From: Brevibacterium sp. 'Marine'
Lineage (GTDB): Bacteria; Actinomycetota; Actinomycetes; Actinomycetales; Brevibacteriaceae
Reading direction: 5' to 3'
Assembly (NCBI RefSeq): GCF_012844365.1
Contig: NZ_CP051626.1
Span: forward strand, 3,658,001-3,722,000
Length of the DNA: 64,000 bases
The notes beneath the pieces were generated by a model. The model saw only the letters and a list, made by a program, of their open reading frames with translations. It was not told the origin of the DNA and ran no database searches. Positions 13,002-63,322 of this stretch are shown one piece after another. The stretch's first letter is position 1, and each line of letters begins with the position of its first letter. The position numbers and the translations under genes are program-made.

Positions 13002-13010
13002 TCCCAATTG

Positions 13011-13040
13011 CTACGTGACGGCGGCCCAGCAACCTCGCGC
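13011..13040. repeat. Left half of palindromic intergenic repeat, copy A (split by the IS)
   Basis: This arm (CTACGTGACGG, then CGGCCCAGCAACCTCGCGC) matches the left arm of intact palindromes at 37471 and 41475. Its partner arm resumes at 14580 after the insertion sequence. The last three bases, CGC, form the target duplication with 14580-14582. Confidence 0.9.
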
Positions 13041-13074
13041 TGGAGTGGTCCCCAATAGTTGGACTGCTGTGAGG

Positions 13075-13989
13075 TCAGCATAAAGCAGTTGCCGGCTGTC
13101 CGGCTGTGGCGGTCTTGGTCCGATACTCCATCGGGGCAAGACCGCCGAGTCGCATCGAGATCCTCTCAAAGTTATACCAATGAATGTACTCATCGATCGC
13201 TTTCTCGAGGTCCTCGACCGTGTTGAATTTCTGCAGATAGAACATCTCGGTTTTCAACTGCCCGAAGAAGTTCTCCGCCATCGCGTTATCCCAGCAGTTT
13301 CCCTTCCGCGACATCGACGGTGTGGCACCGTGTTTGGTCAGGATCGCCGCCCACGACACGTGCTGGTACTGAAACCCCTGGTCCGTGTGCACCAATGGTT
13401 TCTGACCGGGCCGAAGCCCCTGACACGCATTCGTCAGTGACTTGTTCGTCAACGCCGTGTTCGGTGACGTCGACATCGAGTACGACACCACACTGGTATC
13501 GAAGAGATCGATGACCGGTGACAGATACAGTTTCTGATCCGCCACAGCGAATTCGGTGACGTCAGAGACCCATTTCTCATTTGGTTCCTCAGCGGTGAAC
13601 TCCCGGTTGAGGACGTTGCCGGCAACACGGCCGATCGTGCCACGGTGGGAGTTATACCGCTTCCTGCGCACCTTGGTCTTGATGTTCATGTCCTGCATCA
13701 ACCGCAGCACTGTCTTCTTCGCGATCGTGATGCCTTCTTTGACCAAGACTGCCCAGATCTTGCGGTGCCCGTAGCATTCGCGGCTGTCGGTGAAGATCTC
13801 CCGGATCCGGGGCCTGACCTGCTCGTATGGGTCAGGTTTCTGATCGAAGCGTTTCTGGTGATAGAAAAACGTCGACCGTGCCAGGCCCGCAATGCTCAGC
13901 AGCAGTGACAGTGGGTAGTTCGCCTTGAGACTGGCAACTATGCGTGCTTTTACAGCTGCCCGTTCTGCCTCAAGGCCTTCAGTTTTTTT
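13075..13989 (-). CDS. IS3-family transposase OrfB (DDE catalytic part, made by frameshift)
   Basis: This is the catalytic rve/DDE domain. The acidic triad is visible in WVSDVTEF, HTDQGFQY and NAMAENFF, followed by the IS3-type end (MRLGGLAPMEYR). No convincing independent start exists. The frame is open upstream to the A7 run at 13983-13989, where OrfA would slip back one base (TTA AAA AAA to AAA AAA ACT), so it is most likely expressed as an OrfAB fusion. The coordinates give the open frame from the slip site. Confidence 0.9.
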   Translation of the reverse strand, partial: KKTEGLEAERAAVKARIVASLKANYPLSLLLSIAGLARSTFFYHQKRFDQKPDPYEQVRPRIREIFTDSRECYGHRKIWAVLVKEGITIAKKTVLRLMQDMNIKTKVRRKRYNSHRGTIGRVAGNVLNREFTAEEPNEKWVSDVTEFAVADQKLYLSPVIDLFDTSVVSYSMSTSPNTALTNKSLTNACQGLRPGQKPLVHTDQGFQYQHVSWAAILTKHGATPSMSRKGNCWDNAMAENFFGQLKTEMFYLQKFNTVEDLEKAIDEYIHWYNFERISMRLGGLAPMEYRTKTATAGQPATALC

Positions 13990-14519
13990 AAGTACGCGTT
14001 CTCCGCTTCCGCCCGCAACAGCCGGTCTTGCAGCTGCCGATACTCCGCCAGACTAATGTCCTCGGCACGGGTCTTCTTCGCCATCAGGTCCGGCTTAGAC
14101 GGGGCCGGATCAGCATCCGGGTCCTGACCGCTGTCAATGGCGCGCATCCGGGCTGTTGTGCCCTTGCCTGATGCCGGGGGCGAGGTGAATGCCTGATCGC
14201 CCTTGTCCCGGTATTCCTTGACCCAGTCGAGGATCGGACGCGACGATGCCAGGCCGAGTTCCTTGGCGAGTTCGACTTTGTGTTCGCCGTCGAGGTATCG
14301 CTTCGCAGTCGCGATCTTCTGCTCTGCTGGTATACGGCGGCGCTGGTGCGGTTCCATGACCGACATTGTTCCACGCACCAGCCACCGGTCGTGGAGAAGT
14401 TTGAGTGTGGGTTTGTGGACATCGAGCTTCGTGGCTGCCGCGGCGTAGCCGTGCCCTTGGTCGAAGAGTTCGATCGCGGCCTTGGCTTGGTCGTTGGTGA
14501 TCAGACAGTCCTGACGCAT
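13950..14519 (-). CDS. IS3-family transposase OrfA (helix-turn-helix subunit)
   Basis: The 189-residue protein starts MRQDCLITNDQAKAAIELF and carries two helix-turn-helix-like segments and a C-terminal leucine-zipper-like helix (EDISLAEYRQLQDRLLRAEAENAY) ending shortly after the A7 slip site. This long form with duplicated HTH resembles the IS150 branch. It binds the element ends; continuation into OrfB by -1 frameshifting yields the full transposase. Confidence 0.9.
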   Translation of the reverse strand: MRQDCLITNDQAKAAIELFDQGHGYAAAATKLDVHKPTLKLLHDRWLVRGTMSVMEPHQRRRIPAEQKIATAKRYLDGEHKVELAKELGLASSRPILDWVKEYRDKGDQAFTSPPASGKGTTARMRAIDSGQDPDADPAPSKPDLMAKKTRAEDISLAEYRQLQDRLLRAEAENAYLKKLKALRQNGQL

Positions 14520-14579
14520 GGAATGGTCCCTTCAAGTTGGTTTGTGTTGATCACAGTCCAACTTTCGGGGACCACTCCA

Positions 14580-14606
14580 CGCGAGGTTGCTGGGCCGCCG
14601 TCAGGT
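14580..14606. repeat. Right half of palindromic intergenic repeat, copy A
   Basis: CGCGAGGTTGCTGGG followed by CCGCCGTCAGGTAG is the reverse complement of the arm at 13011-13040 apart from one base. It abuts the stop codon of the following minus-strand gene (TAA at 14612-14614), the same placement as in the other two copies. Confidence 0.9.
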
Positions 14607-14611
14607 AGTAA

Positions 14612-37453: not shown

Positions 37454-37470
37454 CAAATCCCCTCCCCTTG

Positions 37471-37526
37471 CTACCCGACGGCGGCCCAGCAACCTGGCAC
37501 CAGGTTGCTGGGCCGCCGTCGGGTAG
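37471..37526. repeat. Palindromic intergenic repeat, copy B
   Basis: A 56-bp palindrome with 27-bp perfect arms (CTACCCGACGGCGGCCCAGC outermost, 2-nt centre). It belongs to the same family as the copies at 13011 and 41475. It sits between the convergent lldR and RND exporter genes; the flanks CCCCTCCCCTTG and TAATTGAGG resemble copy C. It lacks a T-run, so it is not a classical intrinsic terminator. Confidence 0.95.
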
Positions 37527-37539
37527 TAATTGAGGGTGG

Positions 37540-41474: not shown

Positions 41475-41536
41475 TTGCTACCTGACGGCGGCCCAGCAAC
41501 CTCGCGCGAGGTTGCTGGGCCGCCGTCAGGTAGCAA
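41475..41536. repeat. Palindromic intergenic repeat, copy C
   Basis: A perfect 62-bp palindrome (TTGCTACCTGACGGCGGCCC outermost, CGCG centre). It abuts the stop codon of the COG0523 gene (TAA at 41537-41539) and lies 258 bp upstream of the RND exporter start. It has the intact centre AACCTCGCGCGAGGTT into which the IS has jumped in copy A. Confidence 0.97.
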
Positions 41537-63056: not shown

Positions 63057-63143
63057 GCATTTCGGCAAATCAGCCCCACCCGAATGTCACCATGTGACGG
63101 ACCTCACGGCCGCCTCGGTGACGGTCGTGCTAACCTGGCCTCA

Positions 63144-63268
63144 CATGTTCCGGGGACGGTGAAATTCCGTACCGGCGGTCACAGTCCGCGACCCGCTCGC
63201 ATTCGTGCAGGCGGTTGATTCGGTGAAATTCCGAAACCGACAGTCAGAGTCTGGATGGGAGGAGCATG
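63144..63268 (+). ncRNA. FMN riboswitch (RFN element) upstream of ribD
   Basis: The conserved RFN blocks are visible in order: GGGGACGGTGAAATTCCG, ACCGGCGGT, an AGTCCGCGACCCG-type block, TTCGGTGAAATTCCG, ACCGACAGTCAGAGTCTGGATG. Helix P1 pairs CATGTTCC (63144-63151) with GGAGCATG (63261-63268). A -10-like TAACCT at 63131 would start transcription at about 63143. It should switch off ribD when FMN is bound. Confidence 0.95.
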
Positions 63269-63322
63269 GTGGCCTCGGCCGCTGTGTTCGGTGCATTCGA
63301 CCGCACCGTCGCACGCGACTGA
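63266..63322 (+). CDS. Candidate 18-codon upstream ORF in the riboswitch leader
   Basis: ATG 63266 with GGGAGGAGC directly upstream opens an 18-residue frame (MVASAAVFGAFDRTVARD) ending at 63322. Its ribosome site lies in the 3' strand of riboswitch helix P1, so FMN binding would hide it. Whether it is translated is unknown; it is too short for codon statistics. Confidence 0.4.
   Translation: MVASAAVFGAFDRTVARD

Follow-up and report, generated by a model that had tools for sequence, protein, structure and literature searches.

Palindrome-axis insertion by IS3-family insertion sequences (IS) is already known from ISPsy8, IS1397 and ISKpn1 (PMC1525189). In Pseudomonas syringae DC3000, five of five ISPsy8 copies lie at the symmetry axis of repetitive extragenic palindromic (REP) hairpins, flanked by 3-bp direct repeats (PMC1525189). 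The enterobacterial elements IS1397 and ISKpn1 insert specifically into palindromic units, a preference described as transposase-determined in work cited by the same paper (PMC1525189). REP repeats of Escherichia coli are targets of both an IS3 element (IS1397) and an IS110 element (IS621; PMC1525189), the latter carrying bridge-RNA guides that pair with the target in a matching arrangement (PMC11208160), while inverted-repeat structures serve as targets of IS1272 in Staphylococcus aureus (PMC5678879). Here we describe an IS3-family, probably IS150-like element in a stretch of 64,000 nucleotides (the window; positions 3658001-3722000) of the 4.17-Mb single-contig genome of a Brevibacterium. 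It occupies positions 13041-14579 of the window, with its genes on the reverse strand, and divides a near-perfect extragenic palindrome of about 58 bp at its axis. Insertion at this axis is strict in the IS clade to which the element belongs. New features are the actinobacterial system, its scale, the reach to unrelated hairpins and a target shared with three IS110 subgroups.

A preliminary description of the locus had drawn a comparison with IS1397, which proves apt; the closest described behaviour is that of ISPsy8 (PMC1525189). ISPsy8 is likewise an IS3 element at the axis of a palindromic extragenic repeat with 3-bp repeats, but its host belongs to another phylum and its repeat is a different one, and the likeness drawn here is one of described behaviour. 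On the same behavioural basis IS1397 and ISKpn1 resemble the window element as IS3 elements that target palindromes, though their target repeats differ from the Brevibacterium palindrome. IS1272 is less similar: it replaces the inverted repeat without target duplication, whereas the window element leaves both arms in place and duplicates 3-4 bp.

Strict insertion at a palindrome axis in Brevibacterium

At the window locus the junctions read ...AACCTCGCGC, then the IS, then CGCGAGGTTGCTGG..., with the trinucleotide CGC doubled as a target-site duplication (13038-13040 and 14580-14582). On the left, the palindrome half (GCTACGTGACGGCGGCCCAGCAACCTCGCGC; 13010-13040) contains one CGC copy, and the right half (CGCGAGGTTGCTGGGCCGCCGTCAGGTAG; 14580-14608) starts with the second; deletion of one copy in silico gives AACCTCGCGCGAGGTT, in which the palindrome axis falls inside the duplicated bases. 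The true empty site is that of the nearest relative (G019), where the flanking gene is 98% identical, the orthologous palindrome is intact and the one-base arm mismatch of the window locus is kept (CTACGTGACGG...CCGTCAGGTAG). Junctions and empty site together bear out the earlier proposal that the element entered at the palindrome axis and duplicated 3 bp (CGC), and the actinobacterial host that had been suggested is indeed a Brevibacterium. The two intact copies previously placed at 37471 and 41475 and offered as the empty site do exist, at 37470-37527 (centre GGCACC, between convergent genes) and 41477-41534 (centre CGCGCG), but they are sister repeats rather than the empty site. Orthologues of the window site carry an uninterrupted palindrome in many further species, the same IS in G036 and, in G042, a palindrome divided by an IS110 element instead. 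For copies 2-4 of the source genome, the orthologous loci of other species also carry intact palindromes, and all four copies are thereby covered. A different palindrome, e.g. GACGTCACTAATATCGGGCGGCGCCGCCCGATATTAGTGACGTC, is borne by the window-orthologous locus of G044 and G028 (L166, L169).

Among 57 Brevibacterium genomes searched, the clade was present in the source genome and six others. Flanks were read for every copy or contig-edge fragment having an end, a fit being defined as at most five mismatches to a palindrome half. Every left end (41/41) and every right end (38/38) fitted, 79/79 in total across the seven genomes, and all copies thus occupy a single point of a palindromic extragenic repeat, in the manner of IS1397, ISKpn1 and ISPsy8. 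Copies in unrelated, non-palindromic sites, which the preliminary description had held to count against hairpin targeting, were sought, and none was found among these ends. Chance would come nowhere near such a distribution. The four IS copies of the source genome are identical and all at palindrome centres (4/4); together with eight elements in G039 and nine in G053 they make up 21 two-ended elements, the other 37 ends being single ends in draft assemblies. Duplications in the two-ended set are 3 bp long in 18 elements and 4 bp long in 3. The duplicated bases always lie inside the four central bases, in registers that vary (CGC, GCG, GCGC), and a TCG duplication is seen where the palindrome centre is altered. 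Because the registers differ between copies, the insertions represent separate transposition events. In a tree of the transposase protein OrfB, the Brevibacterium clade forms a single branch with support of 100/100. With matched empty sites, the 21 two-ended insertions and palindrome copies that number in the hundreds across the sequenced species, the genus provides a resource and a clean natural system for the study of target choice by a DDE transposase.

Two observations concern the IS copies themselves. Four in G053 (G053:C1 879165-883641, 1550592-1555068, 1628207-1632683 and 3051408-3055884) are interrupted, each at a point of its own, by an insert of about 2.9 kb. In the one copy read (L327), this insert encodes IstA-like and IstB-like proteins of 518 and 276 amino acids and is of IS21 type. 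Contigs of the B. iodinum strain ATCC 49514 carry a near relative of the window element.

The palindrome family and the element

A strict palindrome pattern finds 39 copies in the source genome, compared with 0 for a reversed control pattern, and is present in 23 of the 57 Brevibacterium genomes. Among 396 genomes of the order, the palindrome is restricted to Brevibacterium, where many palindrome-bearing species are without the IS. The predicted RNA fold of the member at 41477-41534 (-65.7 kcal/mol, z -13.5) has a stem of 29 bp closed by a loop of 4 bases. As judged by a rough open reading frame method, palindromes sit just 3' of stop codons and seldom between divergent genes: 10 of 27 are in convergent, 13 in co-directional and 4 in divergent contexts, and a stop codon lies at most 36 nt from the palindrome centre on 17 sides. 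Insertion would thus usually spare genes. The palindrome is without a T-run, and it perhaps acts as a terminator in both directions or as a binding site for a protein. Compensatory arm changes number 10 against 3.2 expected, a count too small to lean on.

Like REP repeats, the Brevibacterium palindrome is repeated and extragenic, but the RAYT protein (Y1 transposase, PF01797) is matched in none of the 57 genomes (0/57), while control genomes gave matches; RAYT as the origin of the palindromes was rejected on this ground. No Rfam family matches the palindromes, and the Rfam matches in the window are a tRNA and an FMN riboswitch alone, the latter at 63142-63270 (RF00050, 104.7 bits).

The element spans 1,539 bp from TGGAGTGGTCCCC... 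at 13041 to ...GGGGACCACTCCA at 14579, and its terminal inverted repeats (13041-13064 and, at the OrfA-side end, 14556-14579) pair at 22 of 24 bases. The termini are of the TG...CA type (TGGAGTGG...CCACTCCA), and the duplications of 3 or 4 bp fall within the hallmark range of 3-5 bp. OrfA (189 amino acids; 13950-14519, reverse strand) contains two helix-turn-helix (HTH) regions, HTH_23 at residues 14-46 and HTH_28/HTH_Tnp_1 at residues 59-111. OrfB (13075-13990, reverse strand) lies in the -1 frame relative to OrfA, and its reading frame stays open upstream to at least 14019. It has an rve core with catalytic residues D153, D213 and E249, the spacing of 35 giving a DD(35)E motif, and scores 332 bits against the NCBIfam profile transpos_IS3, for which the cut-off is 160. 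By the OrfB profile match, the DD(35)E motif and the OrfA/OrfB layout, the element is assigned to the IS3 family, in agreement with its first identification. Within the OrfA/OrfB overlap, an A7 slippery run (13983-13989, reverse strand; frame A AAA AAA C) is the expected site of a programmed -1 frameshift that would yield OrfAB.

Geometry or sequence in target choice

We favour, with a probability of about 0.6, the reading that an IS150-like transposase chooses its targets at the midpoint of inverted repeats, the palindrome of about 58 bp being its regular landing site in Brevibacterium. Relatives at 38-60% OrfB identity insert into targets other than this palindrome. In G316, four identical IS copies occupy four unrelated hairpins, e.g. 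AAAAGGGTGCCCCTGCC ^ GGCAGGGGCACCCTTTT, and sites at inverted-repeat centres were also found in G079, G408, G378, G234, G304, Agromyces, an Arthrobacter plasmid and Brevibacterium G008, and for relatives on Moraxella and Enterobacter plasmids. Ends were fixed by inverted repeats and duplications, or by multi-copy boundaries, for a curated set of 33 sites of relatives, 21 of which reach an axis-symmetry score of at least 10; many of these are terminator-like and unrelated in sequence. Scores at 1,423 random positions peaked at 11, with a 99.9th percentile of 10, a comparison that favours the sites, since each takes the best score of five neighbouring centres and the background that of one; a second background under the best-of-five rule had a 99th percentile of 9.5. 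In a small additional set of six elements, the hairpin was clear at one site, weak at two and absent from three.

In the mechanism envisaged, OrfA/OrfAB, produced by -1 frameshifting, would form the double-stranded circle typical of IS3 elements. The transposase complex would then capture its target through inverted-repeat geometry, presented either as two symmetric arms or as an extruded cruciform, and would cut 3-4 bp apart across the palindrome axis. The Brevibacterium clade may have an added sequence preference for the palindrome, or the palindrome may simply be the best example of the geometry. That 'hairpin-targeted' should mean an extruded hairpin rather than a duplex palindrome is something we infer.

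Several observations weigh against selection by geometry. About one third of the relatives' sites are without a hairpin, and the relatives are not a random sample, some of their sites sharing a repeat (CCCCGGCCTCGTC in G378 and G234). The elements of G415 and G323 share the TGGAGTGGTCCCC ends yet have no hairpin at their sites, where the duplications are 4 bp long. IS150 and ISKpn8 are similar to the window element in size and ends, and its OrfB is 48.5% identical to theirs, but the copies of IS150 in K-12 and of ISKpn8 are without a significant axis score and that of an IS150 plasmid copy is weak (p about 0.02). The Brevibacterium IS is found in this one repeat family and never in ordinary terminator hairpins, a confinement that points to some sequence preference. 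Finally, both structure recognition and frameshifting are predictions from sequence. The non-palindromic surroundings of the G415 and G323 sites (L234, L235) resemble an IS30-type transposase gene. The G378 and G234 sites (L301, L303-L307) share CCCCGGCCTCGTC...GACGAGGCCGGGG, and these genomes may own a separate repeated palindrome serving as target.

The main rival to the geometric reading is that OrfA reads duplex sequence, its HTH regions contacting the conserved part of the arms (AGCAACCTSGCG and the mirror image) while the palindrome only presents the site twice. The two HTH regions of OrfA, the strongly conserved inner arms and the location of all Brevibacterium copies in one repeat family agree with such a reading, as does the report that IS1397 and ISKpn1 owe their differing specificities for palindromic units to their transposases (cited in PMC1525189). 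It fits poorly with the many unrelated hairpins used by relatives, four of them by identical G316 copies, and with the Brevibacterium targets, whose axis position stays constant while arms and centre vary (e.g. GGGCCCCC, TTTCGC, centre TCGC). We regard direct sequence reading as a serious contender, though one that is rather unlikely to be correct. The resource described above, combined with relatives at unrelated hairpins, makes the question of sequence versus structure directly testable for palindrome-loving IS3 elements.

Homologous recombination between palindromes, in place of repeated transposition, is a far less probable cause of the spread of the IS. The palindromes are long enough (about 58 bp) and sufficiently near-identical to invite it, but the duplications vary in register and length (CGC, GCGC, GCG) and the arm variants beside the copies follow the locus and not a common donor, and on these grounds it was rejected. 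We give still less credence to the notion that the element itself includes the halves of the palindrome, as long ends or a miniature inverted-repeat transposable element (MITE), with intact palindromes derived from it and no targeting involved. Halves do stand beside every copy, but the four copies of the source genome are identical inside and differ in their flanking arms, the duplication register differs between copies, many species have the palindrome without the IS, and the intact orthologous palindromes, which contradict this notion directly, carry locus-specific arm variants. It is equally hard to credit that insertion is random and that selection keeps only palindromic intergenic insertions, for although insertion 3' of stop codons would be mild, selection cannot hold all ends (79/79) to an offset of one or two bases from the axis in a single repeat family, and this positional precision led to its rejection.

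A broader form of the geometric reading is put forward tentatively, at somewhat less than even odds: a large IS150-like branch would target inverted-repeat geometry and not sequence, its general substrate being intrinsic-terminator hairpins, and the Brevibacterium clade, perhaps with IS1397 and ISPsy8, would be specialisations onto abundant repeats. In the OrfB tree, which is without other IS3 subgroups, IS150 and ISKpn8 join within a wider, mostly actinobacterial group, and the hairpin-site label, spread in scattered places across the group, is clustered but requires three changes. Inverted-repeat targeting probably predates the Brevibacterium clade, and the suggestion that this locus represents an independent case is not supported, with related IS3 elements at inverted-repeat centres in other actinobacteria and on Moraxella and Enterobacter plasmids; descent from an older habit common to these elements has at least the likelihood of a separate origin. 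On IS3 elements aimed at terminators, nothing relevant was found among open-licence papers, and an earlier account of IS150-like elements at such sites is possible.

IS110-family elements on the same palindrome

The divided palindrome of G042 led to an IS110-like family that uses the same target. Its proteins of 355-358 amino acids are presumed to be IS110 recombinases on the basis of their sequence and of the end structure of the elements. Three subgroups use the one Brevibacterium palindrome, each at its own fixed position: group I at the palindrome centre (CCTCGCGC^GAGG), group II at CTACCTGACGGC^GGCCC and group III at CTAC^CTGACGG. Insertions in the source genome lie at 885041, 1347800, 3385996 and 3454179, and the IS110 loci read are L176-L205 and L206-L225. 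At an offset of 77-79 from the left end, elements of all groups carry a segment equal or near-equal to the left target. This guide-like segment is ACCTCGCGC in group I, with an exact 9-base match to the left target, and AATTGCTAC or AATTACTAC in group III, also with an exact 9-base match, one member having two mismatches; in group II it is ACCCGGCGG, with one mismatch as read by eye. Candidate right guides, seen in some of the elements only, come next and comprise CGTCGGG in group III, GACCTCG in some members of group I and GGGCCG in group II (by eye).

The left-end segments fit bridge-RNA guidance as in IS621, and the Brevibacterium groups resemble IS621 and other REP-targeting IS110 elements in using the same class of repeat. 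Such RNA-guided recombinases are unrelated in mechanism to the window IS3 element, which encodes a DDE transposase. With three subgroups at three positions and left guides that fit each, the system would serve as a natural instance of guides changing while the target stays the same, and within a single genus mobile elements of two unrelated kinds can find safe landing places in intergenic palindromes. Both kinds meet at copy 4 of the IS3 element in the source genome (near 3385996-3388972; L004, L207), where the palindrome also holds a group III element at CTAC^CTGACGG. Shortened palindromes reading CCTCGCGCTGTG... occur at G003:C1:2372827-2372874 and G009:C13:65084-65136, and resemble the traces that a lost IS110 element with a TGTGAG end would leave behind.
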